A DNA stretch of 64,000 nucleotides from NCBI GenBank assembly GCA_950295325.1, contig OX485807.1:4280501-4344500 (forward strand). The letters are read 5' to 3'. The notes beneath the pieces were generated by a model. The model ran no database searches and was not told the origin of the DNA. It saw nothing but the letters and a program-made list of their open reading frames with translations. Position 1 is the first letter of the stretch; each line of letters begins with the position of its first letter. Of this stretch, positions 12,928 to 63,781 are shown piece after piece. Both the position numbers and the translations under genes were made by a program. This stretch comes from Polytrichum commune (Eukaryota > Streptophyta > Polytrichopsida > Polytrichales > Polytrichaceae).

Positions 12928-13114
12928 ATCATAGTACCCTCCCAAAAAAAAGATGAGGACGGGGAGAGGGCGGTGCGTTCTTGGAGCGGCCGCAAGAAGC
13001 GGGTGAGATCCGGTTCTTTCAAGAAGCATGCAAGAAGACAATATTTGCATTCAAGATCGATGTATTTAGGATTGAAGTTACTATGACGGAGTTCGTCTTT
13101 ACATTGCGGTTCGA
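12928..13114 (+). promoter_or_regulatory. LINE 5' leader
   Basis: The 187 nt between the 5' target duplication and the ORF1 start contain an A-run at 12943-12951 and a GC-rich patch. LINE promoters are internal, so transcription signals should lie here, but no specific box was identified. The short length leaves open a slight 5' truncation. Confidence 0.4.
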
Positions 13115-15352
13115 ATGACTATCAATCCCGACGATTTGGACTACACACGCCTTGGCGCGGAGGGTGAGAAGCCAACAGTGAGGCGAGTCCAGGTTGAAGT
13201 GAAAGTCACAAGAAACACAGCAATGGGAAGGCAGGCTGCTGGACAATGGCGTCCGCTGGCGTCATCGAATGCACCATCTCTGCCTCACGATAGTAGACCA
13301 TCTGCACCGGTAGGAGAGCCGTCACCTCCAAAACCAGAAGCTCGGTCGATCGACTTGTCCCAGATACTCCCTTCTGACTCTCTCAGTGATCACCAGCTAG
13401 CACCTACGTTGGAATCGCGACACCCATCCGGCCCTGTCCCGGAGAAAGACTTCTTGACAGATGAACCGCGCAAGCTGATTGCAAATATCCCAGATGAGCT
13501 ACTCGCCACTCGTCGATCTACCTGCGCGGCGAAGGCAGAAGTGTCATTACTAGGAAGGATACATGGTAAACATCCCGGGCTAAAAGCTTTAACAGCTTGG
13601 GCTCGGGATACCTTACACCCTTCCCTTTCATTTCTGTCATTAAAGACTAACCACCCGGAAGGAAGAATTCATGCACTTACTCAAACTGATCTCCTTTGTG
13701 ACACGGCAGCCATTTTCTTTTCCAGTTGGAAACCGCACTTTGATGCTAAGGCTCCGCAAGCAGAAGAAAGTCTGGACCACCCAGTATGGGTTCAGATAGT
13801 AGATCTTTGTCAGGTGCTGAGGGAAGAGCCTTTCTTGAAACTTATTGGGGAGCAGATCGGTCAAGTTATCTCGATTGATAACTCGGAGGCATATCGCTCT
13901 AAGCTCTTTGGACCAAGAATTAGGCTGTTAGTTCAAGATTTGCAACAGCTCCCTCAAACAATGGTCATCCCGAGGCTTGATGGGGTAGGCACCATCGAAT
14001 ACAATTTGGAGTATAGCGGCTTACCAAATCAGTGTGGGCGCTGTCGTGGTCATGACCATCTTGTCCGAAATTGTCCGAAGAAATACCCACCTGTGAGAAA
14101 GAAGGAAGTACCTAGCAAAAACAAGATTGGGGTGAACAGGGGTGAGCGAGGCAAGGTTCCTGACGAAGGAGAGATGTTGGGTGATAACCATGAGAAACCG
14201 ATCTCAAACTCTTCAACGAAAGAACCAGAACAAGATCCAACGCGAAATACTCACCCAGTTGTTATGCAGTCAGACAACGTTGATGCTGCCTCAGACACCC
14301 CAGGTAAGCAAGAAACACCTTCATCCCCCGACGCGTTGCTGCAGGTACCTGGCAACACAAGTGGAGATGGTAGTAATCATCAATACCAGCCGGTGCTACC
14401 GTCGGAGGATACCAGTACACTTGTACACAACACCAACAGCAACTCAGCAACTGGGCAGCCTGAATTCAACCTCAACTCGCTACAGCCGGACGACATCAAC
14501 TTCCCGAGGTTGCAGACACCGGTTACAGTACGTCGCAAGACCTCAGAACCAGATCCCTCCCCCAAGAGCAATGAGACACACTTTATCTGGAAGGCACAAC
14601 ATATAACATCCTCAAGCTCTAAGCCCATCGTAGCTGAAGGAGTCAAGGGTAAAGGAAAATTACCATACTCAACTCCTGTCACCCGGCAAGGTTACAGAAC
14701 AGGGAGGCTAGCGGAGGACTTCTGGTCATCCTTAGGGATGCCAAACACTCCACCAACCAATTCCAAGAAGCTCAGAGTGATTCCTTTTCTGACCAAGAAT
14801 CGTCACTTGGAGCAAGCTGAATACCTTGTGGACAGACGAGGGCCCTCGTTTGGTGCTATAGCTTATGTCCACATTGCAGAAGTCCTTGCGGGAATTCCAT
14901 GGACACAAACCCGGGCTAGACAACACGTCGTTGATGAAGTATCACAAATACTTCACAAAAAACTCATCTTCAATAACAACTTTTCCAACCCATTTCAGAG
15001 ATGGAATCAGGGTCAGTGGTATGCGCAATGGGGGCAAGGAGAAGAGGGTGAATCTATCTGTACTCTGTATGTGAGCATAGACGTCCCAGAACAGAAGGTC
15101 AAACCCCGAAAAGGGAACCACATGGGTTGGCGTAAAGAACCAGGAGAAATCTCACTCATTCGCACTCTGCAGACCACTGAAGATATCCACCCAGTAGAAC
15201 AAGACAACGCACACTGGCTAAGGATGGCAGGAAGATTACCCCCTACGCAGACGAAGGAGCTCATGTCTCCTGAGTCCCACAATCGATTTGCGACACTACT
15301 GGATGAGGAGGCTACCTTGGTCCAGCCACAAAACCCACACTCTCTATCATGA
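13115..15352 (+). CDS. LINE ORF1: nucleic-acid-binding Gag-like protein
   Basis: 745 aa, intact. Residues about 130-305 have the pattern of the plant DUF4283 retrotransposon domain (WVQIVDLCQVL, LIGEQIGQVISID, then a conserved arginine/valine-rich strand). A CCHC zinc knuckle follows: C307, C310, H315, C320, in CGRCRGHDHLVRNC. Residues about 330-490 are rich in Ser, Thr, Pro and Asn and are probably disordered. A folded-looking region at about 550-690 (RVIPFLTKNRHL, GIPWTQTRARQHV) was not recognised. ORF1 proteins bind the element RNA to form the ribonucleoprotein needed for retrotransposition. The TGA stop overlaps the ORF2 ATG. Codon use is more balanced than in the surrounding AT-rich DNA. 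Confidence 0.85.
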   Translation: MTINPDDLDYTRLGAEGEKPTVRRVQVEVKVTRNTAMGRQAAGQWRPLASSNAPSLPHDSRPSAPVGEPSPPKPEARSIDLSQILPSDSLSDHQLAPTLESRHPSGPVPEKDFLTDEPRKLIANIPDELLATRRSTCAAKAEVSLLGRIHGKHPGLKALTAWARDTLHPSLSFLSLKTNHPEGRIHALTQTDLLCDTAAIFFSSWKPHFDAKAPQAEESLDHPVWVQIVDLCQVLREEPFLKLIGEQIGQVISIDNSEAYRSKLFGPRIRLLVQDLQQLPQTMVIPRLDGVGTIEYNLEYSGLPNQCGRCRGHDHLVRNCPKKYPPVRKKEVPSKNKIGVNRGERGKVPDEGEMLGDNHEKPISNSSTKEPEQDPTRNTHPVVMQSDNVDAASDTPGKQETPSSPDALLQVPGNTSGDGSNHQYQPVLPSEDTSTLVHNTNSNSATGQPEFNLNSLQPDDINFPRLQTPVTVRRKTSEPDPSPKSNETHFIWKAQHITSSSSKPIVAEGVKGKGKLPYSTPVTRQGYRTGRLAEDFWSSLGMPNTPPTNSKKLRVIPFLTKNRHLEQAEYLVDRRGPSFGAIAYVHIAEVLAGIPWTQTRARQHVVDEVSQILHKKLIFNNNFSNPFQRWNQGQWYAQWGQGEEGESICTLYVSIDVPEQKVKPRKGNHMGWRKEPGEISLIRTLQTTEDIHPVEQDNAHWLRMAGRLPPTQTKELMSPESHNRFATLLDEEATLVQPQNPHSLS

Positions 15353-18300
15353 AGGGAGACCGACTTACAATTGGGACCCAGAACGCTAGAGGCCTGGGCC
15401 AAGGTCTAGCGGGGCGTCGGAAACGCAAAGAATTGAAGATCATCTTCAACAATACCACACCACCCACAGATATTCTTCTGTTACAAGAGACTAAGTTATC
15501 CGAGGATGCGTGTCTTAAACAAGCAAGACACATCGAATTCAGAGGAGGTACAAGCCTATGGAATGAAGGGTCATTCTCGGCACAATCAGACAGGTTCAAG
15601 GGAGGCACAGGTATTGTCCTCTCTGAATGGCTGGCAGCATCCATCACACACCATGGTATTTTATACCCGGGCAGAGCTCAGTATGTGGTAATCAAACTCA
15701 GCTCTCTCTTACACATCGGAATCATTAATGTGTACGCTTTCAGCCACACTGGCCCACGAGCAATGTTGTGGAATCATCTAGCAAACGTTGAACTCCCGGA
15801 GGCTCAATGGATACTAGCCGGGGATTTTAATAACATTGAGCATCCTAGGGATAAGCAAGGGGGATCCACACAAACAACCATGCACACAAGGGAACTGGAA
15901 GCTTGGACGCAACTACTCACCAGATTAGGTGTGCAAGATGCATTCAATTCAGGAGCTTTTTTCAGACGATCGGATAAGGCTTTTACCTGGACGAATGCGC
16001 ACAATGATGAATCCATGATTCAATCACGCATTGATCGCATCTACATCCCAGCTTACATTGAAAGAATTGGGGGAACTACAGAGATCTTACCCACCATACC
16101 AGACATATCTGATCATGCAGGCTATCTGGTCCATTTCAATGATGAAGGAAAATACAAACACCGGCCACACCCCTTCAACAAAGGCTTACTCCAGAACTCG
16201 GAACACAAAGCAGCTCTTCTACAGACCTGGAAAGCAGTGATGGAGGACGAAACCCTGAACACATGGAACCACAAAATGGTCTCAGCCAATAAAGCTATTC
16301 GCCTCAAATCTATGGAGCTCACCAAAACTCAAAAAAAGAAATGGAAAGAGGCTTACCTGGAGCAATTTGATGAAATCATTGCGGCGGAGGAGGAATTACA
16401 ACACAACTGGGGTTCCCGAGAAGCCAGGAATAAATTGAGTGACGCGCAGGTAGTGCTCCATGAAGTGCGTCAACAAAAGTTTGAGTTCCATGAAAGTGCC
16501 ATCCTCTCGAAATGGGCGAGGGTGGGCGATCGGTGTACTAAGGAGTTCTTTGAACACCACACTGGCATCCGACGTCCTACTCTCATCAATCAGATGCAGG
16601 ACGGAGACAAAATCCTCACCTCCCAGAAGGATCTGGAAACACACATTCTCAGATTCTATGAGTCATTGTACACCAAGGATGAGGAAGTGGAACAAAATGT
16701 CAATGCAAGGGACGATTGCTTTCAGTTCATACGACGCACGGTAACAGATGAGCATAATATTGAACTGATGCGGCCACTCACCATGGAAGAAGTTGCAGAA
16801 GCAATTCAACAACTACCGGCAGGAAAATCTCCGGGTGTTGACTCTATCCCGGCTGAATTCTACCATGTGATGTGGGATGACATTGGAGCAGACATATTTA
16901 ATTTTGTTCAAGAGTCAATAACCCAATGCTTTTTGTTGGAAGAATTAAACATCAGCAAAATTGCTTTGCTTCCCAAATCCGAGGATAGGCTTCGGATACA
17001 GAACTACAGACCGATATCGCTACTCAACACCATGTACAAAGTGGTAGCAAAGGTCTACGCCAACCGAATGAAGCCGCTCCTGCACCATTGGATTCTTCCC
17101 TCACAAACAGGGTTCGTACCAAATCGTTGCATTCTGGATAATATATTCTTGGCCTTTGAAGCAATTGCATGGACAAGGGAAAACCAACAGGACCTAAGCA
17201 TGCTTCTATTGGACTTTGAGAAAGCATACGACAGGGTAAATTGGACTTTCCTGAGAGAGGTGATGACGAAGATGGGATTCCATAGCCAATGGATTAACCA
17301 AGTGATGTCACTTAATGAAAACGCCTCTGCATCAGTTATTGTCAATGGGGAGATCTCACAACCCTTTCGCCTTCAACGCTCTGTTCGTCAAGGCTGCCCA
17401 CTTGCTCCATATCTGTTCCTACTCACTGTAGACGTTCTCGGCCAAATGTTACAGCATCCGGGGTGTAGAGTGCAAGGGCTTCGATTACCAGATAACACAA
17501 CTATCACGAACCAAATGTTTGCAGACGATACACTTCTATTACTAGATGGGACCAGAGATAATCTCGACAGGGCGCTAAATGTCATAAACAGGTTTAGTGC
17601 AGCATCGGGAGCGAAATTAAACCTACATAAATCAGTAGGACTTTGGCTGTCCACAAGAGCAAGAGAATGGCAATGGGGGGAAGAAGCTGGCCTAAAATGG
17701 CTGGAAAAAGGAGAAGTTACTCGGTACTTGGGATATCCGTTTGGCATTGATATCCCCCAAAAGGAAAAGGATGCCAGAATGCTCAATCAAATACGCAAAC
17801 ACCTACTGAATTGGTCAACCAACAAACTATCTTTGGCAGGAAGAATCCTAATTGCTAACCAGGTAGTGCTTTCCTCTATATGGTACTTAGCCTCTTGCAC
17901 AGATCTCTCGGGCAAATCTCTCAAGCTAGCAAGAGCAGCAGTGAGAAATTATGTGTGGTCAGGGAAGCGAGATGCAAAAGCAAGAGCCAGGGTTAAATGG
18001 AGCACAGCAGTCTTACCCATTGTCCGAGGCGGCGTGAAGATACTGGACCCGAAGTGGCAGGCCTCGGCACTGCTTGTCAAACTCCTTATCCGTGGACTAT
18101 CTGTAGGGTATGAGCCATGGAAGACGTTAGTCAGATATAGGGTGGCGCAAACAAAACAATCTCGGAGAGGGCGATGGCCAGCGCATGCAAATTGGATAAT
18201 GAACTCAGCCCATCTTGTACAACAGGGCTCTACAATGTGGCAAGGGGTTATGAAGGCCTGGGGTACAATCCAATCGGGATTAGAGCAGCAAGACCCACAA

Positions 18301-20844
18301 AGCTGGTCCGAGATAGCCAAACAACCCCTATTTGGCAACAGGCTCCTGACAAACAACGATGGCATTCAATGGGGCACTGAGTTCCGGACCAACATGAGGT
18401 GGTGGTCTGAAAAGAAATTTCGAACACTACAAGATATAGCTAGAACTGATAGGGAGGGCTGGAAAACCTTTGCTGAACTCCGGCGTTTACGCAGAACTAG
18501 TGTTGCTCCATATCTATATGATAGAGTGGTACGAAGCATCCCCTGGACGGCCAACCCCATGCCTGCTCCTCGCTCAGGAGAATGGGTAGCAGCAAAAGAA
18601 CCGGATGGAACCATCAGCACAGTCTACCACATTCAGAGTATAGATCCATTCGAAGCTAAGGTATACAAAAAAGACCCTTCGGAGCAGCTACACTTAATTG
18701 TCCAGCGACAACTGATTCCAACCCAGCAGATGAGAGAGGTACGGGTTCTTAGATGTGGAGGAAATAAAAGGGTAGTCCTGGACTACAATCCACAAGATGA
18801 AACAGACATCGAACAAACTCTTTGGCTTTGGGGTAATGACTAGGTCAGCAATCTGGAATGGGACCCACGAGAATGGCAATGGCGAAGACTAGGGGTACTC
18901 CCGGACACATCAGTCATGAACTATTCCACTAAAAGGGGGTACCGAATTGCACTCCGACAGAACACACAACCAATGGCCCTGGATACTGAACTTGAAAGGG
19001 AAGGCTTTAATAGTAAAGTACGAGCCAAATTCTTCAATAGAATTTGGCATCCTTTCTTACCTAGGAAAGTATCGGCTATGCAGTGGTTAGTGCTTACCCA
19101 GGGGCTGCCAGTAGGAGAATGGAGAGAAAAGATTGGACTCCCCAGTGACTGTGAGTTATGCACCACACCAATCAAGGAGACACTGCAGCATGCACTCAAG
19201 GACTGTCCACATCTCTGCAGAGTTTGGGAGTTATTTCGGAATACCAGGAAAGCTGCTGGTCTTCCACCATCATACTGCACATGGTTAGATATCAGCCGAG
19301 GGTTGATACACGATCCACCGGGGCCTCAGGTAGAGGAAGAGTTACGATGGGACACCGCGTCAGCCTTCTCGCTAAACGTGGATACTCCATGGGACATTCT
19401 TAGGGCGCAACTCCTCTGGTCCATTTGGTGTCAAAGGGTGGCGCACACATTCAGAGATGACAAATTTCACATAGGAGTAGTCCTTTGGCATGCATGGCGA
19501 AATACAATATATTGTGCTATGGAGGCTTACAAAGAACTCTATAGACACAAGAGAAATGAAGAGAAACGTCAAGAGCTAATCAAATGCTTTCAACAAATAT
19601 GGACGGCGTCAAGTATTTTTGGAAGGCTACAAGGCAATACCATTAAATGGAACGTCACTCCACACCAGGAGTTTCTTCCCAAAGAACTGGGAGCCTGGAC
19701 GGTTTCGCCAATACGCATCAATCGGCTATCCCCCTCCCCAGATATTGAAGCAGAGTTTATGGCCAGGTCTGATTTCCCCGACCTGGTAGATGAGTTCCTG
19801 CGCAATATTGGAAACACCTGGCAGCCCTCCCATGCAAGCAACTCGGAGGACAATCACAGAGATCCTCAGGCCTACCCAGTAGACACACCTTGCAGTACAT
19901 CAGCCACACAGACGCTGAGTGAGCAGAATCATCAGGAAGACTTGAGAGAAGGGTCACTCCACACGGACGAGAATGACACCGCACAAGGGGAGGAGTTGCT
20001 TTCTGAGGAAACTAATAACACTCCCTCTGACTCCAGCCCTATGACCACCTGCTTAGCACCTACAGAAGACACACATCGAGCTACACTACAGGAAAACCGC
20101 AAGGCTGAATCTTCAATGAAACGGGACAAAGAGACACATACCTCTTCAACAGCGAAATTGGAGTCGCGCCCACGGTGCCGTCCGAAGAAACGATGTCCTC
20201 GGAGACTCCATCATCCTATGCGGAGATTCAGGAAGGAACGACTCAGGAATCAACAATCACCTCCACCTGTACTCTCGGAGAATGAAAGGGTGTCGCTGCA
20301 AGCACAACGTGAACCACTTAAGGATGATTGCTCCAGCAGGAAGAGCGAGGCACCACATACAGACAGAGTCAAACCTACCAGCAGACCTAAGAGAAAATGT
20401 CGTTTCGGTCCTAAGGCCAGACAATCACGTGCATCGCAGGGTTACCGAACCCAGAGTCTACACCCCTCTCATCAATGCTCTAAACCCCAGACAAAAGGAA
20501 CTAAAGAGACTATACACGGCCACCAGGGGGAGGTACTCTCACCGCAAAATGGTGAGTTTCGGAGACTCACAGATAAAGTGACCCTTCAGCCAGCCGCGGT
20601 AAGTAAGCGAACGCTTTTCGACTCTTACAAAAACAAGGGCGGGGTTCAAAGAACAGAAGTTAATCCTTCCAAATTCGCAGCCAAACGCCTTGGGATTTCA
20701 AAGGAAGAGTTTGAAGACTCACTGACAAGAGAAATAAACGAACTACTCGCGGAGATTGAAAGCACTCGACTCGAAGCCTTAGATTCGACTGATACAGAGG
20801 TGAAACAAACAACGACATCACAGCTCAGGAGCCCGGTCGACTAA
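15349..20844 (+). pseudogene. LINE ORF2: endonuclease-reverse transcriptase, with in-frame TAG
   Basis: The frame starts with ATG at 15349, inside the ORF1 stop (ATGA). The first 1164 codons encode an APE-type endonuclease (TQNARGL; QETK with E47; NVYAFSH; AGDFNN; SRIDRIYI; SDHA). A reverse transcriptase follows (AGKSPGVDSIPAEFY, NYRPISLLN, LLLDFEKAYDRVNW, RQGCPLAPYLF, and FADD at residues 724-727). A TAG at 18841-18843 interrupts the frame. The same frame then runs on without any shift to 20844, encoding the zf-RVT domain (FFNRIWHPFLPRKVSAMQWL, CELC, HALKDCPHLC) and a long polar tail. The single stop is most simply a point mutation, for example from TGG or CAG. Reading through would give about 1,832 codons. 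The element nicks DNA and primes reverse transcription at the target. Confidence 0.85.
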
Positions 20845-34882: not shown

Positions 34883-36022
34883 TGAGGAGTAGGCTAGAAA
34901 TGAGAATAGGCTGTCTACGCTTCAGGTAGTAAGCTTAGTAATAGAAGTGTAGAGTGAAGAGAGAGAGAGAGTGAGAGAGCACGTTGGCAAAGGTAACAAG
35001 GCAGTTGCCTTGAAGGCCACATGAGTGCCTCATGAGTGCACCAGATTCTCGCAAGATCTGCCCTCTTTTACTCGACCACCCATGATCTGCCGACCTCCTC
35101 CGCCGGCACCCTCGACTCATACTTATACCCCCACACCCTCTCCACTCCTGGCACTAACTTACAGTTCTGGAAGGCAGTCACTCAGACAGACAGACAGACA
35201 GGCTTAGACTAACTTCTTCATCATCTGGTTCAACTACTTCAACGAGTGCTAAATCCCCATACCCTGCTAAGTCGAGTACCAGAAGAGCCTGGCGCTAATC
35301 CTCCCCGGCTCTCTGTTGAGTGAGGGAGCCCCAAAAGTAGGAGTTTTGGGTTGTGGGTTAGTGGTGACCAGATTTGGTGGCTTGAGAGGGTGATTCAGGT
35401 GGTAGTTGTGAGAGAAGGTGGTTCGGGATTCTGGATTCTGCAGAGGGAGCTACATTGCTGAATTGGTTGGGAGGTGGCGGTAGTTGATGGTAGTTGACGG
35501 TAGTTTCCGGAATTTGATTTCCATCAGGCTGCTCTCCTTGCCCTTACTGGGTCGGTACAGATGAGATTTAGTTGTGGCTCCTGTGAAGAGTAGAAGCTTG
35601 CGAGATCATGCCTGGTGAGGGAGCCATTTTTATAGAAATGGCTGTGCAAATTTCTGATATGGGTTTGAATATCGTCGTGTGTGAGGGAGCTGCTGGTGTA
35701 GCTGCTAGTTGAGCCAGGGTTCATTTGGAGAGAGTCCAGCATATTGCAGGTCACGCAAGTCAATAGATTCCAGTACATATTATTGCCCTCCCTGCCGACG
35801 ATTACGATATAATTTAGAAATCGTACACGAAAGAGTCATCAAGTTGAAGGATACGATATACCTTGTAGCAAGGATAATTGCAAAGTGACTTCTTTTCCTT
35901 CCTCGACACAGCTACTAGCTAGCTAACAGCCAATATAGCCAAGACCTGGATAGAGTGGAGTGGTTTTCGACAGGTAGACTGATTGTAACTTATATATCCG
36001 AAAACATCATATTATTGCTGCG

Positions 36023-39073
<3,051 letters not shown>

Positions 39074-50749: not shown

Positions 50750-53700
50750 ATGGCGAGGAGGAAGCGCGCTCGGGCGATGGAGATTCGGGAACCCAAAAAG
50801 CACAAATGCGAGAAGCAGAATTTGCAGGTGGAGGTGGAGGAACGGCAGGCTGAAGAGCCCAAGAAAGTGAACCCTTTCCTGCGCTCATGGGCATGGAAAC
50901 GAGAACACAGGTATTGTCACGGTTTTCCTTCGTCGCGCATTTCTCTAGTTCCAGGGCTTCAACACAAGGTAAATCTTCTCCCTAGACTGGGAAAAGGAGC
51001 GCCATCAGAGAGCAAAAAGATGCTAGGGTTGTTAGTTCTATTTCAGAAGGTGCTCTTTATACACTCAGACATACATAATCTACATAATGTAGCGATGAGT
51101 GTTGAATCACACAATGTCCTCTAAGGGAGAAACTTTTGTGTGGTGTTTTACCAACCTAATCAAATTTTATTTTAAGATAGAACTCAAATTAGTTTGGTTT
51201 TTGGGCTGCTGCTCTTATGTAATGATAGTGGTATTTGTGATTAATCTCAGTGATTCTACTATGGATCCTAGTACTTTTCAGAAGGTATAAAGCTTAATGT
51301 CATTCTGTATAATTCTCAATGTTCTAGTAATTTCCCCTTCCATTTGGCTAACTCTTCACAAATCTATTTCGTGATAGGTATTTATATTTTGATCAGTGAG
51401 AAATGTCTGGGCGGATTTCTAAGATGAGTTGGCACTCAGGCAGGAGGATTGACAGTTGAATTAGATTTTTTAAGCCCAGTTGGGTGTCAAGGATCTTATG
51501 TGTTTTTCAAATTACTGTCCAATAAACATATCCTCTGGTTTGGTCCTTATGCCATAATATTGAACAATTACCACATGATCCACAGAATGAGCTCTTGGTG
51601 GCCTGGTATTGCTAAATGGAATCACAAAAAAAATACCAATTAATTAGATCCTGCCCAGATGTACGAGCTAGGGATTGGTGTGCCATTGTGCTGACCGACT
51701 TTTGCTCTTCAAATTCACGCAAGTAAGGCAGAGCATGCTAAAACCAATGCCCCACCCAAAACTGACACCCTAAATTCTTGCTTAATAATTACATATTGAT
51801 TTGAGAATGTCCGCCACCTTAACATCATGCTCCTGTGATGTTTTGGGTCTTTTGCATCAGGATTCAAATAAAGTAGACTTTGGTGTGTTGGAATCCCCTG
51901 TTGATTGTGAATGATAATTATTAAAAGTAAATTGAATCTAACAATAGCATATATACTCAGCGCTTAAAGTGATGGTTTTAGCACCATCTACCTTATGTGG
52001 ATTCTTCACACTCATGGTGATGTAAAGTATGTTGTAATTTTGTTAATTCATATTCTCCAACTTCTACTGATTTGATTTACACAACGAAACTTGTGTGGCA
52101 TTAGCAAATCTATGATGAAGCATCAACAAAAATCGGACCTCCCCTGATCTAGTTATGGTTTTTGGAAGTGAATGTTTGTTGATTCCTAAAATGAACATGT
52201 AGGTCCTCCCAGTTGTGTTTACTATTAAATGTGGAGTATTAAATAACATTTAAAGATAGGGCCTGATCTCTTCTAAACATGTGTCTTCATGGTGTAGTTC
52301 TTTGATCCTCACCGAACTACACACCCATCAAATATAAGTGTCCGATTAAGAAAGTAACTGAATAACACCTACACACCTTATTGTGGAGCAGGCCGGACAG
52401 GGATCGCTTCAGGAACTCATACGAACACAAGATCAAGATAGGGGGAGAGGCACGTACTCTGGTGCTCCATCAAGCTCCCTTTTCTACTACAGGCTTTGCT
52501 TCTACAGGCAGGTAACTAGATCAAAAACTAATGTGGTGGTGTTATGGGTGAATTTTTTAGTTGTTGAAATCTGCAGGAATATATTTTACGCAGATGCAGA
52601 GATGGTAGTAATTGTGAGTCATATACCTGTTCTCGAAGTTTTTATGTGCAATAGGTGTATCTAAATGTGAGCTCCAGATCCTTGCAATGAAGTACATTTT
52701 GATGTGCCCCTTATGAATGTTTGTGCTGCATACCTTATTCAAACACTTGCACTAGCTTTTGTGATAGTTGGGGTTGCGAGTTTCTGCAAGCTAACATGTG
52801 GGTTATTTATCTTCTGATGAATCAAGTTTGCATTGCATTTCTTTATTTTGATCAAACCATCTGATTCTATGGAATTGCCACCTTGCAGTATGGGATAGTG
52901 CAATTGTGTTGGCCAAATTTCTTGAGAAGTGGCCAGAAATAGTGGCTGGAAAGAAATGCATTGAATTGGGAGCAGGCTGTGGTTTAGCAGGTGGGCACTT
53001 CTACTTAGAATTCCAAGTTCATGCATGGTCCAAGTATATCTTGTTTTATCATACTACTGGTCTTGTGGGATAGGGTAGTGCAAGATGATTACCTTATCCA
53101 AATCGAGGTCGTAGACATTTTCCTCATTCTAAAATAAGAAAAAAATAATCTTAAAGTTTTTTTTAAGACAAAATCAATTTCTTCCATATGTTACACGGTG
53201 GGATTATTCAAATAAAAATCAGATAACAAACAAAAAAGTTCTCGATCTGGAACTTCTTTGGATCTCGTATGGATATCAAATCCATTTCCAAAGTGAACAT
53301 TGCCTGTCTTTTTAGATGATCTTGTAGCCCCTCCCCAATTATGATTGAATAGTTAACAAATTTTGAGCATGTAGCTTAATCCCTTCTTCACACATGCCTT
53401 TTTGGGGTAGTGCTAAACCCCTAAATCCTAACCACACATCACTCAAATATTGGTGTTCATTAAAGATAAGTAACCAAATTAGACCCGTCTATATAGTACC
53501 CTGAGCTGTCAATTTGGCTGTTGTTTCCATAGTTTCTCATTCCTGTTTGAAGTGAAAATTTGATCCAAGACAGGTTGCAGTTGAATGTTCAAAGACTTGC
53601 TCAGTCAAGGGAATGAATGCTGAGAGTACTGTCAGCCTTCAAGTCATGATTTGTTGTTCTCACATGGTGCTTCATGTCAGGTATAACAGCAGCTGCAATG

Positions 53701-54117
53701 GGTGCGAAAAAAGTGATTCTCACAGATTATCCTGAAAACATCCCCTTACTTGACAGCAACTGTGTTAGCAACAATCTGACAGAGGTGGCAACAACCATGC
53801 CCTTAATATGGGGTATAGATCCTGACTTAGAAGAGAACGACTGCGATATTATCTTAGGCACAGACATCATGTATTATGATGATGCAGTGAAGCTGTTGCT
53901 TGCCACCTTGCAAAGTCTTTCAGGAAGGCATACCAGGATTTTCTTTGCCTATGGAAGAAACCGGCAGGCGGAGGACGCATTTATGAGAGCCATACAAGAA
54001 TTCAAGTTCAAGTTGAAACATGTTGCAGAGGCAGAACTTGATGATGTATACCAGTGTGAGGATGTAGATGTTTATGAGCTCAATATTAATGAAAGTGAAG
54101 AATGTAGTTTTACATAA
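50750..54117 (+). CDS. METTL21-like (Methyltransf_16) protein methyltransferase, four exons
   Basis: Exons 50750-50910, 52392-52507, 52889-52990 and 53681-54117 give 271 aa. Residues 1-54 are basic and possibly a nuclear signal (ARRKRARA, PKKHK). Then come GFASTVWDSAIVLAKFLE, the SAM-binding motif CIELGAGCGLAG (about 116-127), VILTDYPENI and LGTDIMYYDDAV (the family's acidic post-II motif). These define the METTL21/EEF1A-KMT-type seven-beta-strand lysine methyltransferases; the substrate cannot be told from sequence. Introns 1 and 3 are GT-AG. Intron 2 must start at GC (52508) to keep the frame, because the GT four bases later would shift it. The ATG is the first credible one, preceded by a telo-box. 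Intron 3, and probably intron 1, contain pieces of dispersed repeat C. The four-exon model is inferred by eye. Confidence 0.82.
52295..52370. repeat. Dispersed repeat C fragment in methyltransferase intron 1
   Basis: ACACACCCATCAAATATAAG, then TGTCCGATTAAGA and a GTAACTGAATA block, resemble the segment after the repeat at 60463-60505 (ACCATTCAAATAGAGGTGTC, TGATTAAGA, GGTTACCGAATA). Short and diverged. Confidence 0.4.
53240..53500. repeat. Dispersed repeat C copy in methyltransferase intron 3
   Basis: Carries the family order: CCCCTCCCC, TTTTGAGCATGTAG(C/T), AATCCCTTCTTCACACATG, CCTTTTTGGGGT, CCTAACCACA, then GGTGTTCATTAA and a GTAACCAAAT block. Closest to the copy at 6570-6830 and more distant from 59834-60462. 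Confidence 0.5.
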
Positions 54118-54412
54118 TTTGTGTTCCTACAACTTGTCAAAATGTGCAGGCAGTTTCTTCCAGTATCTGCTTCTCTTTCTGTGTGAACGTCCCAATCTTT
54201 GGTTATCTGCCAACTATGGGACATGGTGAAATAGTGCCAAAAAGACTACTTCGAATACTTCCATCAGTCAAAGGAAACGTTAATTCCGGCTGCTACAACG
54301 ACAAAGTGAGTGGCATTACTATGTACAGATTTACTAAATATAAAGATTGTTTTTCCGTTAGTTTGCATCAATTGATCAGAGTTGATGTGGCTTTAAAACC
54401 ATCAACGATATT

Positions 54413-54485
54413 GCCGTCCTAGCTCAGTTGGTAGAGCGCAAGGCTCTTAACCTTGTGGTCCAGGGTTCGAGCCCCTGGGGTGGCG
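54413..54485 (+). tRNA. tRNA-Lys (anticodon CUU)
   Basis: A 73-nt cloverleaf with acceptor GCCGTCC/GGGTGGC plus discriminator G, D arm GCTC...GAGC, anticodon stem CAAGG/CCTTG with loop CTCTTAA (anticodon CTT at 54446-54448) and T stem CAGGG/CCCTG. No intron is present and CCA is not encoded, as expected for a nuclear gene. The internal A box (TAGCTCAGTTGG) and B box (GGTTCGAGCCC) are intact. A CAA motif at 54403-54405 lies about 10 bases upstream, as is common at plant tRNA start sites. It sits about 300 bases after the methyltransferase stop, on the same strand. Confidence 0.96.
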
Positions 54486-54488
54486 AAC

Positions 54489-54492
54489 TTTT
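54489..54492 (+). terminator. RNA polymerase III terminator (TTTT)
   Basis: Four T residues begin four bases after the tRNA 3' end, the usual position for a polymerase III stop. Four is the minimal length. Confidence 0.6.
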
Positions 54493-54611
54493 GCTGTAGC
54501 AGTACTCACACTGGCAAAGAAATTTGGTAACAATTGTGAAAATTATGATTTTGTATTTTTAATCAAGGATGATATGAAGACAGATCTTTGTGAGGATATG
54601 ATATCAGAGTA

Positions 54612-54763
54612 TCTAGAAGGCAAGGTTTTGTGCAGATTTGTGTGTATATAGAAAGTTTGGGAGCATATAGAAGGTTTGTGTGCGGATTTGTGTGTATATA
54701 GAAAGTATGCGAGTATATAGAAGGTTTGTGTACGGATTTGTGTGTATATAGAAAGTATGCATG
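54612..54763. repeat. 50-bp tandem repeat, about three copies
   Basis: The block GATTTGTGTGTATATAGAAA recurs at 54635, 54685 and 54735 with exactly 50-bp spacing, alternating with a TATAGAAGGTTTGTG block. Near-identical units imply recent expansion. The serine/threonine-rich minus-strand frame (54543-54776) is a by-product. Confidence 0.8.
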
Positions 54764-55478: not shown

Positions 55479-58400
55479 CTATTGCAATGCTTGCACAAAG
55501 CTCTTCAAAGCATCCACCTCACGATTTTCTGATGGGTACTTGATAATTTGGCTGCTGTTCTTTGGGAAAAACAAAACTGTTGGATAGCTCTGCATCTGCA
55601 GGTTTTGTTGCGCATAGGATTTCTGGTCCTTATCAGCATTGAACTTGGCAACCTGCTCCATCAATTACAAACATTGTCAATTGAGACCTAAGATACAGAA
55701 AATGCAAGACTACAAAATGCAAAACTGATACAATAACTGATGCAAACTTGTGACCTACAATACCAAAGCCAATGTCATTTAGATTTGTTGCATGAGCTTG
55801 AAAGTGGAAGGAGATCTATAGCACTTGCTCTTCAGCTCAAAAAGGTCAAGACGTACCACAACATTTGAGCCAGCAAGCTCCTCTGCAACTGCATTGTATG
55901 AATCATTCATTGCCTGCATCGTGCAATCCCTATGAGTCAGACAATTTCCACAAAGAGAATGGAGCTGCTGCAAGTCTTGGATAGATAATACTTCAAGGGG
56001 CGTTTTCACACAACCACAACCACAACCACAGGAATTGATTGTGGTATGCTTTCTTTGACATCATTCTGAGGGATAAGGTACAATGATGATAACCACAACT
56101 ACTCTTACTTCAACTACAGTACAAGCCATAGTTGAGGGTGGTTGCAGTTTCCTTTCTTTGCTTCTAATTTGTTTGTAGTCACTATGTGGCATCAGGAGAG
56201 AACTTCAATGCCAGAATACGGGAGAGGGTTTACAGGACACAGTTCCTCTTGGACAAACTTTACATTAGTATCCATATATTATTTGTCCACTCCAGACTAC
56301 ACTAATAGGAGGGGCGACAATTGAGATTTAAAAAAAAATCTCTTCAACCATAACTATGCCTTGTGTGCAAACCAATGATATATAAAGTAGTTGTGGTAGA
56401 AGGTATGCTGGGACCACCACCACTCGAGTAATTGTGTGTAAATACTCCTTCAGCCTCTATAATATGCTACTTAAATAACTCATTTATGGACTAAGGAAGC
56501 CTCACCTGACTATATTGGCACCAAGGAGCATATAGAACCACCAGAGTTGACTTTGCACGGTTTTCTCCCTTCACCAAGGTTTCAATATCCCCCCGACTCA
56601 GGGTAACCACGCTTTCACTATTGAAAAGGTCGGCGAATTCAATTTTCTCCCCAACTATACCGGTAGAGTCGTTTGAGTTATCTATGTTACCCTGATAAAC
56701 AATGCACCCCCAACAACAATATTACTCAATCTCCCAAAACAGGAAAAACCTCGAGTCAAAATGACCCTTCATTGGAAGGCCATAGTGTTAGTTGGGCAAT
56801 GAAAGTGCTCCAGATGCAATTCCTGTAACATAACATTATAGATGACTTGAACAGGTTTGATGAAAATATTCTCACAAGCTAGAACTTTCCACCACAAGTA
56901 CTAGTCTGTGATTACCAGAGAAACATACTTTGTGCCAGAAAAAACGCTATCCATCATGAACAGTAACCATATGATTGAAGATCCTCTTGTTACCTTGTGG
57001 AGACCACATTCCTTGGCCTTGGCATCCTCCCACCACCACCGACCCTCTCGCTCATGCTGATTTGGTAGTACAGCCCTTGTGCATGGTTCACAGCCAATCG
57101 ATACATAACCCTACAACCATAAACGCTTCTTAGTTTCACAAGGAAGCCAAAATCGCCAATACCTTTCATGAAGATGCAGATAATGCAATGTATTCCTAAC
57201 CTCGGTGTCTAGCTAGTGCTCCTTTACAGACCACAAGAAATGGTGAACAACAATATGCTTGTGACATAGGAGAGGATTAAACCTGAGAATGAAGAGCATT
57301 GACAGGAACATTCATAGTGCGAAGGAAAGACCACACTGATACTCCAGACACATTCGACAGAGGGTTCCACTTGATCAAACTTCCAGGACCACCGTCCATG
57401 CCCTCAAATGCGGGATCAACCTGGGCACATCCATTCCACATCAGTATAACTAGACACCTGCAACGACTACGCTGACAATAGAGAACTGTCTAAACCACCA
57501 GCACCCAGCCACCACCTACTCAATCATCGGCATACGCTACACGACCTCCAATCAGAAAAAATTGACATGTCTAATCTTGCCACTATACTGAAGAGAGACA
57601 CCAGCAATCACATCATTGCCGCACCTGTACAATTGGGACGTTAGCACGAGTTCCTGGCGACTGATCTTTGCGTTGCCCAGTGATCCAAGCTCGCAAACCC
57701 TTGAGTGCGCGACGAAGTGGCCTCACCTTGCGCACCCTGCAGCACTCTTGATGGCCATCTTCATAAAAGGAGAATAACCCTTTTGTGCGCACTAATTCTT
57801 CTACCTCCGTGGCATCAGGGAACATATATTGAATGTGAATGTTATAGCGTTTCTCTACTTCAGCAAACAATTGCAGAGTTTCAGGATTCAGCCTTCCTGT
57901 TTCCAAGCTAAACACTCGGAAAGGACGACCAGTGAGGTGTGCATACTCGATCAATGCTACATCTTCAGCTCCACTGCAACCAGGAGAGTATGAAGTTAGT
58001 GAAATCACAATGTTGCGAACTGCACCTAAAGATGATAACTGCCAATCACAACCCTCTGATAGTCACTATTAATGCAGGAAGATAAAAACAACTTGATTGG
58101 CTGTGTGTCATGACGAACTGCAAGACTTAACTCTGAGAATTCTTTGTATTCTACACATCGATAATTTGATTCTGGAGTAGGACAACAACATGGAACTCAA
58201 GAGTTCTTCCATTATGTAAGTGTTCGAAATAGTTTCGCCCTCACCTGAAGGCAATTGCAATGTCGGGACCATACAGCGCTAGAGCACGATCCATGATTTC
58301 CAGTGGAGATGCATTATCCAATTCCTCAGCAAGCGTAGGAATGTCAACTTTTGTTTCCGTAATCTCTGCCACAACAAAAGACTCCAGGATTTAAGCCCCT

Positions 58401-59368
58401 CGCATAACTTACAAGAAAACATTGAACTATGTGCAGAATGCCGCTGAAATATTGATGACCTTTATGCCAAGTGCCATAGGCCCTACGTTTCAATGCATTG
58501 GATATGCTGATCAGTACTAAAACGATGACAGTAAATTGTGCATTCATACTTGAGTGTCACGAGTGTCAAATGTATTTGAGCCCATACGAATGCAAAAAGG
58601 TTATCTAGACGCACCAGGTGCCACGATGGCAGCCGCAACAGGGCGAATAGTACTGCGTTCCTGGGAGACTTCAAAATTGGCCCCGAGCGACTTCCTCTGC
58701 ACGGTGAATGAGCTCCCAATTGAGCTTCCGGATGACGACACGCTTCCAAACTTCAGACTATCCTTCCCTTTCAACGACCCTGCTCCACACCAGAACAAAT
58801 GCGATCGTCAGAATATCATCCCCCCAAAGCACGCACACCGCCACAACAAACACACACATTTTTAAAATAAACAAGTTAAAAAAAGCTCCCAAACCAAGAG
58901 AAAGTGAGAAACTGGAACTGCGCTAGCCGGTAAAGAATGGAGTACAATGGCTCGTACACTCCAGTCGAGAAGTAGCATTGCCTCAAAGAACACACACCAC
59001 ACTTCTTCCTTCTCAATTCATCTTCGGAAGTGCAAGGTGCCTTCCAAACCAAACCAAATCAAATCAGTCTCTCCATAACGAGCTCATTCTCTAAAATCCT
59101 CATTACTACACGATCGCCAAAAGTCGCCGTCCAACCAAACCAAGTAACCACAGCGCAAACCGCTTAACTCAAAATTCTCTCCGCGCAAACCTCCCAACCC
59201 GCCAATACAAATACAACCGAGACAGAAAAGGAAAAAAAGACAAGAGACAGAAACCGCACCAGCCGACACCACTGATGAGTGGCGAGACGCCGACGTCGAG
59301 GCCACGGCCGCGGAGGCGGGCACGCGCGTCACCGCTACTGCTGCGTCCATAGCAACCAGCTGCGCCAT
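55479..59368 (-). CDS. APR: Plastid APS reductase (APR) with thioredoxin-like domain, nine exons
   Basis: Minus-strand exons in order: 59260-59368, 58615-58779, 58245-58365, 57625-57973, 57283-57420, 56994-57110, 56506-56691, 55857-55913, 55479-55652. They give 471 aa, close to plant APRs, and all introns are GT-AG. The enzyme reduces adenylyl sulfate to sulfite in plastids, the committed step of sulfate assimilation. Residues 1 to about 90 are Ser/Ala-rich, a chloroplast transit peptide. The reductase domain has [19 protein letters not shown], the Fe-S cysteines C209-C210 ([14 protein letters not shown]) and C301/C304 (IGCEPC), and catalytic C329 (KAKECGLHK). The C-terminal domain (about 355-471) has [23 protein letters not shown] and SYPTVLFFP. 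Its usual CPFC site is C391-Q-Y-S394, so the resolving Cys is lost. The first in-frame ATG (59368) follows an upstream in-frame TAG. Confidence 0.94.
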
Positions 59369-59833: not shown

Positions 59834-60462
59834 TCTTGAATGGTTACTTTCTCCAACTATCTCCTCTTCTCCTCGGACACGAAAGTACACACAATTCTTA
59901 GTACGGAATGGCTTGCAAATCCACGTTGAGGCTCTAGCTGCTTTTCTCATGATTTTCGGAGCCCATATGAATATATCGTTCATTCTCTAAGCGAAGAATC
60001 TCGTGCTCTTTGAATGGTTATATACGTATAAACCTCCCCCCTCCTCTCCAATTACGTTGATTGTTGAGTTTGGAATAGCATGTAGTCCAATCTCTTTCAA
60101 ACACGTGTATGTTATGTTGTTGTTCTTGGAGCCACACCTAACCATGTTCTTGAATGGTTACTTTCTCCAACTATCTCTCTTCTCCTCGGACACGAAAGTC
60201 CACACGATTCTTAGTACGGAATGGCTTGCAAATCCACATTGAGGTTCTAGCCGCTTTTCTCATGATTTTCGGAGCCCGTATGAATATATCGTTCATTCTC
60301 AAAGCGAAGAATCTCGTGCTCTTTGAATGGTTATACATGTATAAACCTCCCCCCCCCCCCCCACAATTACATTGATTGTTGAGTTTGGAATAGCATGTAG
60401 TCCAATCTCTTTCAAACATGTGTATATTATGTTGTTGTTCTTGGAGCCACACCTAACCATGT
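59834..60462. repeat. Tandem duplication of a 314-bp unit (dispersed repeat C)
   Basis: 59834-60147 and 60148-60462 are near-identical direct copies differing by scattered substitutions and the length of a C run (CCCCCCTCCTC in copy 1, 15 Cs in copy 2). Each contains TCTCGTGCTCTTTGAATGGT, GGAATAGCATGTAGTCCAAT and GTTCTTGGAGCCACACCTAA. Diverged single copies occur at 6570-6830 and 53240-53500. No protein-coding capacity. Confidence 0.88.
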
Positions 60463-61984: not shown

Positions 61985-62295
61985 TTTTGTTCATGCTCGT
62001 CCTAAACAAATGGCAATTATAATTTAAAGCTTGCTCCAACGCAACTCCAAGACCACCCACATAAAAGGTACATATGTCCTTGTTGCACCACTGATTAAGG
62101 ACTAATTATGTTAAGTTATCTCGAAGTTTTGCAGTTGCATTTTTGTTCATGCTCGTCCTAAACAAATGGCAATTAGAATTTAAAGCTTGCTCCAACGCAA
62201 CTCCAAGACCACCCACATAAAAGGTACATATGTCCTTGTTGCACCGCCGATTAAGGACTAATTATGTTAAGTTATCTCGAAGTTTTGCAGTTGCA
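61985..62295. repeat. 156-bp tandem duplication
   Basis: 61985-62140 and 62141-62295 are direct repeats differing at only a few positions (for example ATTATAAT versus ATTAGAAT, and CCACTGATT versus CCGCCGATT). Very recent duplication of anonymous DNA. Confidence 0.9.
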
Positions 62296-63358
62296 CCGAG
62301 CTAAGCAAGAGCTAGCACTAGCTAAGGATAACACAACATGCCTCATCCTTAACCGTTCATGGGAGGAGAGTTAAACTTAACTAGACTACTTATGTGCCCG
62401 AAGTTTATATTAATAGGATTTAATACTTGAGAATGATAGGGTTTTGGACAACCCATGCCAAGAAGTAGAATTTAGCGCTAGTTAAGCTAATTGGCAATGT
62501 CACCTCACAAACAAAAATTAACAATATTCAAGCAATTATTATCTTTGGCACTCCTTAGCATTGGTTATGTCTAACCGGTGGTGCAACATGGGCCTTAGAA
62601 ATAATACATATGTGCCAAGTAGGTGTGAAAGACCAATATTTGATGGTAAATAGTCAATAAAAAGTAGTGAGTGGTTGTAATAGATGTGAGATATTGGGTT
62701 TGAAAGAAAAATGTGAAATACCCTTATCAAATTTTGTTTCATAGGTTGACGTGACAAACATGCGAAGTGTTCTTATAATAGCTTGATAACCAGGTTGCTT
62801 CTATACACAACCATCACTTTCTCGAATCAATTGATGTCAATCTCATCAAGAACACTTTGTTGGGCCACATTGTGAGACCAAATCCACCACCCTTAAGCGT
62901 CCTAGTCCGGGTGATGACTTTGAGAATCACATTTATCTATCACAACATGGAACCATATGCAAGGTGATTTTCATGTTTAAATGAACATGCATTGTCTCAC
63001 TCATTGTACTTTATTAATGTTGGCCTCTTGGCTTGTGCTAGAGTTGGCTTTCTCAAGAGTCCAACCCGCGGCTTTAGCCGCACATGCCCTCAATGATTTT
63101 CCCCTTGCATACTTTGACCCAACCTCCTTTGTCTTCCCCTCGCGGAAGTCCTCCACCTTCTCCATTACTTGTGCATTTGATTTATTTAATAGAGAGGATA
63201 CAAGCGTTAAAAAACGCTATTTCCCATAATCAATCCTAAGTGCAATTACTTATGAAACCCACACGTGCCTCCACCTAACCTAATGTGGCCAACTACTTAT
63301 CTATAAACTAATATAGTCTAATATAGTCTATAAACTAATGTAATAATATAAACTAATC
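62296..63358. other. Unassigned spacer
   Basis: No gene recognised. Small direct repeats (CTAATATAGT) occur around 63307-63330, close to the minisatellite. Confidence 0.4.
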
Positions 63359-63781
63359 AGTCACAACCACAGCTAACTAGCTGCCTCCAATGCAGTCGCA
63401 ACCACAGCTAACTAGCTGCCTCCAATGCAGTCGCAACCACAGCTAACCAGCTGCCTCCGATGCAGTCGCAGCCGCAGTTAACCAGTTGCCTCTTGATACA
63501 GTCCCGGCCACAGCTAACCAGCTGCCTCCAATGCAATCACAACCGCAGTTAACCAGTTGCCTCTTGATACAGTCCCGGCCACAGCTAACCAGCTGCCTCC
63601 AATGCACTCACAACCACAGCTAACCAGCTGCCTCCAATGCAATCACAACCACAGCTAACCAGCTGCCTCCAATGCAATCACAACCACAGCTAACCAGCTG
63701 CCTCCAATGCAGTCGCAACCACAGCTAACCAGCTGCCTCCGATGCAGTCGCAACCGCAGTTAACCAGTTGCCTCTTGATAC
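63359..63781. repeat. 35/36-bp minisatellite, 12 units
   Basis: Twelve head-to-tail units cover 423 bp: nine of 35 bp and three of 36 bp. All share CCACAGCTAACCAGCTGCCT or its variant CCGCAGTTAACCAGTTGCCT. The 36-bp units (4th, 6th and 12th) end TTGATAC in place of CAATGC. Units 4-5 and 6-7 form a repeated 71-bp pair, and units 3-4 resemble 11-12, showing higher-order duplication. The motif contains the palindromic core CAGCTG. Non-coding, since 35 is not a multiple of three. Confidence 0.93.

Follow-up and report, generated by a model that had tools for sequence, protein, structure and literature searches.

APS reductase (APR) is described as the rate-limiting step of plant sulfate assimilation, and its plant forms are said to carry, as a rule, seven conserved cysteines, of which the redox domain contributes two (PMC9426629). 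The window analysed here, a stretch of 64,000 nucleotides of Polytrichum commune DNA, holds an APR gene in which the second of these two residues is a serine, and the question is how such an enzyme would receive its electrons. We propose that the gene is an intact nuclear one, that its product is a plastid-type Fe-S APR which is naturally monothiol (WCQYS) and that the enzyme would work via glutathione. To this reading as a whole we give about an even chance.

Gene structure and splice models

The APR gene lies on the minus strand and runs from its ATG at 59368 to the end of the stop codon at 55479. A first-pass annotation of this DNA had given the same limits, and they proved correct: both the ATG and the stop were located, and nine exons were joined into a protein of 471 residues (Table 1). 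The eight introns are all GT-AG and are 172 to 592 bases long. No frameshift, stop, frame or splice defect was found in the 1,416 coding bases. Two choices, three bases apart, are open at each of three sites (the exon 2 acceptor, the exon 8 donor and the exon 9 acceptor), and every alternative choice (58782, 55860 and 55655, respectively) makes a difference of one residue in the protein. There are eight open gene models, with 470 to 473 residues, and WCQYS was present in all eight. The model chosen aligns gap-free to the AtAPR1 redox domain, and across the exon 8-9 junction at least one other model matches it in length. A tblastn search of the window revealed no second copy of the gene, returning the nine exons and one match at E 2.8.

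Ser, Ala, Val and Thr account for 50 of the first 88 residues, among which there are four acidic residues and nine Lys or Arg. With this Ser/Ala-rich, basic N-terminus, the presequence may target the protein to the plastid.

Table 1. Exons and redox motif of the APR gene, in positions of the window
Feature	Residues	Position	Strand	Remarks
APR exon 1	1-36	59260..59368	minus	start ATG, N-terminal presequence
APR exon 2	37-91	58615..58779	minus	second open acceptor 3 bases upstream, 58782
APR exon 3	92-131	58245..58365	minus	PAPS_reduct domain begins here (Pfam PF01507)
APR exon 4	132-248	57625..57973	minus	first Fe-S pair C209-C210; aligned to bacterial APR 2GOY
APR exon 5	249-294	57283..57420	minus	
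APR exon 6	295-333	56994..57110	minus	Fe-S pair C301/C304 and catalytic C329 (KECGLH)
APR exon 7	334-395	56506..56691	minus	linker and start of redox domain; ends WCQYSQ; donor CAG/GTGAGG
CQYS motif	391-394	56509..56520	minus	C391 TGC, Q392 CAA, Y393 TAT, S394 AGT
APR exon 8	396-414	55857..55913	minus	alternative open donor 55860
APR exon 9	415-471 and stop	55479..55652	minus	cis-Pro loop SYP 436-438, PSE 454-456; alternative open acceptor 55655

Surroundings of the gene

Several repeats were observed upstream of the APR gene. About 313-315 bases are tandemly duplicated at 59864-60462, in two register families that are each 94% identical; this duplication lies 5' of the start codon at a distance of roughly 0.5 to 1.1 kb, and the promoter may lie there. 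Further upstream are a 156-base tandem duplication with 98% matches (61985-62295) and a 35-base repeat in about 12 copies (63358-63774). On the other side, a partial Methyltransf_16 (lysine methyltransferase) gene on the plus strand (53650-54117) is convergent with the APR gene. The stretch 54412-54760 holds a tRNA-Lys (CTT) gene and, within about 140 bases after it, 2.8 copies of a 50-base repeat; the two could form a short element of tRNA origin instead of an ordinary tRNA gene. With Rfam at gathering thresholds, a search of the whole window gave a single tRNA and no other hit.

Farther away on the plus strand, a LINE-like element (13076-20844) carries a DUF4283 ORF, an ORF with endonuclease and reverse transcriptase, and a zf-RVT ORF; since its open frames are long, the element is perhaps young. 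Exons of a cytokinin dehydrogenase were found at 36885-39073, also on the plus strand, with FAD_binding_4 at 36885-37463 and Cytokin-bind at 38699-39073. The ORF at 35978-36640, which matched no Pfam family, may be the first exon of that gene. Together with the plant-type APR, these cytokinin dehydrogenase domains mark the host as a plant from its genes.

Family identity and domain content

The predicted protein scored 698.3 bits against TIGR00424, the NCBIfam equivalog for plant-type APS reductase (cut-off 553.2 bits), with residues 21-470 aligned to positions 16-463 of the 464 in the model. Pfam PAPS_reduct (PF01507) matched residues 127-307 with 165.3 bits, and Pfam Thioredoxin (PF00085) matched residues 378-468, which form the fused C-terminal thioredoxin-fold domain. 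By sequence, the best solved relatives were the bacterial APR 2GOY, which we take to be the Pseudomonas APS reductase, for the reductase domain and AtAPR1 (5YRY, residues 359-467) for the redox domain. Both putative 4Fe-4S cysteine pairs, C209-C210 and C301/C304, were found in the patterns CCxxRR/K and GCxPCT, which are given as the Fe-S cysteine-pair pattern in PMC2275785, and the catalytic cysteine C329 was present in KECGLH. With C391, these make up the full set of six cysteines, against the usual seven, and the redox domain has CQYS in the place of a CxxC. By architecture and family score the predicted protein is a complete plant-type APR, and the first-pass annotation was right to describe it as a full APR with every Fe-S and catalytic cysteine. 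Since seven cysteines are said to be present "usually" (PMC9426629), we class the protein as an APR variant; if CxxC is held to be strictly defining, it is APR-like in every other tested respect.

Three other identities were considered and rejected. APRL proteins are generally defined by the absence of the reductase domain, and that domain is present here. The protein matched 4BWV, presumably the moss APR-B protein, with an E value of 1.3e-11. An APR-B identity was rejected since the present protein has the full set of four Fe-S cysteines. In Physcomitrella and Selaginella, APR-B is likewise a plant APS reductase whose cofactor set is not the standard one, but it is without the Fe-S cysteines (PMC2275785), whereas the present protein keeps all four and passes TIGR00424. 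A monothiol class I glutaredoxin domain of the GrxS12 type was not indicated either, as the sequence models matching the redox domain were Thioredoxin, PDI, Thioredoxin_7 and OST3/OST6 (the last two under the Pfam cut-off) and included no glutaredoxin model. The absence of such a model leaves unaffected the proposal that the domain works like GrxS12.

Relatives were collected with a longer query seeded by peptides of this protein, which gave 115 matching stretches and 83 relatives; 80 of the 83 were analysed, and all 80 were bacterial, although a set chosen in this way does not amount to a survey of bacteria. Like 2GOY, these loci share the reductase domain with the protein, and both cysteine pairs and ECGxH were present in every one. 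Unlike the present protein, none of the 80 has a fused redox domain, no tblastn or phmmer match to that domain being found in them at E 1 or better. Viral contigs gave no further plant APR, as none of nine pattern matches of the redox-domain query and not the single match of the longer query was confirmed. Among genome contigs, none of 25 was confirmed by alignment of the redox domain, and the analysed relatives from the longer query were the bacterial ones described above. The plant APRs used for comparison consist of one Arabidopsis redox domain and one family model. A weak sequence match of the redox domain (E about 5e-6) was to the thioredoxin-fold domain of ERp44, whose motif we take to be CxxS. 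ERp44 is an endoplasmic reticulum protein that forms mixed disulfides with its clients.

The CQYS motif

The redox motif reads W390-C391-Q392-Y393-S394, with S394 encoded by AGT at 56511-56509. The CxxS noted in the first reading of this DNA is thus present in the predicted protein, as C391 and S394; the motif had been placed at the end of exon 6, and it actually finishes one codon short of the end of exon 7 of nine. C391 is the sole cysteine of the redox domain.

AtAPR1 (At4g04610), like this protein, consists of a reductase domain and a C-terminal thioredoxin-fold domain, and the two were compared over the AtAPR1 redox domain (5YRY). The alignment covered 109 residues with no gaps, 65 of which were identical. 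AtAPR1 has WCPFC, and three of the five loop residues differ in this protein. The serine that had been pointed out as a change from CPFC to CQYS is confirmed in the predicted protein, but it is not the sole change in the loop. Eleven glutathione-contact positions were taken from PMC6827007, and seven of them are identical to AtAPR1 (W390, C391, S436, P438, P454, S455 and E456). The four changed positions are P to Q, F to Y and C to S in the motif, and F to Y before the cis-Pro, so that outside the motif five of six contacts are identical and one is changed from Phe to Tyr. Since three of the four changes fall inside the motif, a retuned site or relaxed selection fits better than one base error.

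To what extent the serine is unusual was judged from single-residue variants of the C-terminal 178 residues, scored against TIGR00424 (baseline 273.5 bits). The score rose to 278.2 with S394C and fell to 268.7 with either C391S or C329S, while Q392P and Y393F gave 274.6 and 275.1. At position 394 Cys is thus preferred over Ser by 4.7 bits, compared with 4.8 bits at C391 and C329, in a model that does not display its share of non-seed plants. The Pfam Thioredoxin score increased from 49.0 to 56.5 with S394C. Position 394 is, in these models, strongly a cysteine.

A proposed monothiol glutathione mechanism

Formation of an S-sulfocysteine on the catalytic cysteine is the accepted first step of plant APR (PMC9426629). 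In the mechanism that we propose, C329 would take the sulfo group from APS to give the S-sulfocysteine. Either glutathione or C391 would then attack it, and sulfite would depart. In the third step the resulting mixed disulfide, C329-SG or C329-C391, would be cleared with C391 as the only thiol of the redox domain, and further glutathione would reduce C391-SG. Glutathione could come first, with C391 deglutathionylating the catalytic cysteine, or C391 could come first, with glutathione resolving the disulfide; either order would require only glutathione and one thiol. This protein has no internal CxxC disulfide such as other plant APRs form, so glutathione would take over the resolving role of the missing cysteine. 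In monothiol glutathione chemistry the first cysteine suffices. Sulfite release in plant APR is reported to use glutathione and the CxxC cysteines, and which attacks first, glutathione or the first CxxC cysteine, is debated (PMC9426629).

Several observations are in line with this mechanism. A number of eukaryotic glutaredoxins are as active or more active once their second cysteine is removed, and the plastid GrxS12 (WCSYS) reduces glutathionylated proteins (PMC3866529). In the HEDS assay the second cysteine of dithiol glutaredoxins is dispensable for numerous isoforms (PMC5707495). When assayed in PMC3528435, free S-sulfocysteine took no more than 1 min to form a mixed disulfide with glutathione. 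GrxS12 resembles the present protein in its WCxYS site and is likewise plastidial and glutathione-linked, and its Brassicaceae paralog GrxC5 (WCSYC) provides a natural Cys/Ser difference at the second position; GrxS12 differs in being a free-standing glutaredoxin with one more cysteine, to which no resolving role is ascribed (PMC3866529). The earlier statement that a CxxS site can do monothiol chemistry fits this literature, though glutaredoxins with a natural CxxS site are as a rule inactive when tested in the standard assay (PMC5707495).

Other observations run against the mechanism. Yeast Grx2 and E. coli Grx1 and Grx3 became less active when their second cysteine was removed (PMC3866529). 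The monothiol Grx4 did not reduce S-sulfocysteine, in an assay with thioredoxin reductase and not glutathione; the other redox enzymes tested were better than glutathione alone on this substrate, and glutathione was non-essential for its reduction in E. coli (PMC3528435). The CxxC cysteines of APR have been called mandatory (PMC9426629), and three of the five motif-loop residues are changed from AtAPR1. Since the redox domain has a thioredoxin fold, the glutaredoxin precedents may not transfer to it. On balance, our analysis favours a monothiol glutathione mechanism, as in the plastid GrxS12, over a different reductant. It is our inference that the gene yields an active protein which works with glutathione in the order of steps proposed.

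Alternative explanations

A serious competitor to this reading, which we nevertheless think less likely, is an enzyme that is impaired or serves as a backup. Loss of the second cysteine would then strongly cut the activity, the flux would be carried by another APR copy or by the Fe-S-free APR-B of non-seed plants, and the gene may be under relaxed selection or be one weak allele. We regard this rival as serious because of the inactivity that natural CxxS glutaredoxins usually show in the standard assay and because one natural substitution nearly abolishes the activity of Arabidopsis APR2. In the Arabidopsis accession Shahdara, a change of Ala to Glu near the active centre of APR2 lowers the affinity for the reductant (PMC3400089), and this APR2 is 99.8% inactive while the plants still live (PMC10837017). 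Physcomitrella, Selaginella and Marchantia are reported to have APR-B (PMC2275785), which could share the load if the host has it too. The altered loop and the description of the CxxC cysteines as mandatory (PMC9426629) point the same way. Against an impaired enzyme, the gene carries no frameshift or stop, its splice sites are unbroken, TIGR00424 scores the protein as an ordinary member of the family, and W390, C391 and most contact positions are kept.

It is considerably less probable that C329 is served, directly or via C391, by another reductant such as a thioredoxin of the plastid or a separate glutaredoxin. An APR trimmed to its reductase domain loses activity, which is restored by addition of thioredoxin (PMC6827007), and bacterial APRs work without a fused domain, all 80 loci ending within 17 residues after ECGxH. 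However, AtAPR1 has the same residue at five of the six glutathione contacts outside the motif, which gives no hint that the use of glutathione has been abandoned. The first-pass annotation had taken the motif to suggest a different reductant or regulation in this lineage. We do not follow it, as glutathione can serve a monothiol site and these contacts are kept; that the feature is shared across a lineage is without support.

A sequencing or assembly error at 56511, the first base of the AGT codon, is very improbable. Although AGT is one base away from a Cys codon, the position is outside any homopolymer, the two motif residues just before it are changed from CPFC as well, in a manner that one error does not explain, and the 1,416 coding bases show no frame or splice defect. 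Least probable of all is a real transcript that uses other splice sites and thereby restores a cysteine, a check that had been set for the motif: among 35 open exon 7-8 joinings (single-intron, with GT or GC donors, over a limited range and with micro-exons left out), 26 have a CxxC of some kind, all of it from retained intron-7 sequence, and none, the annotated one included, has WCxxC or restores the cysteine in register.

Significance

In open-licence full-text literature, no description of a full-length CxxS APR was found among the matches listed, which is weak evidence of novelty, and passages from papers that contain both "phosphosulfate reductase" and "CXXS" described no CxxS APR.

A natural enzyme in which the second cysteine is replaced and every other recognised part is kept is a ready-made test of the way in which the fused redox domain hands electrons from glutathione to the S-sulfocysteine, a point still under debate (PMC9426629). 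Should the CQYS enzyme prove active with glutathione, plant APR could do without the internal CxxC disulfide; should it prove inactive, some other route must exist in the plant. We also consider, tentatively and as a rather doubtful extension, that a whole plant lineage may have a monothiol APR as its working assimilatory enzyme, in which the second cysteine would be dispensable, glutathione would clear the S-sulfocysteine and the response to oxidation would be altered by loss of the disulfide. If true, this would have a direct bearing on which nucleophile attacks first in plant APR, a matter of debate.
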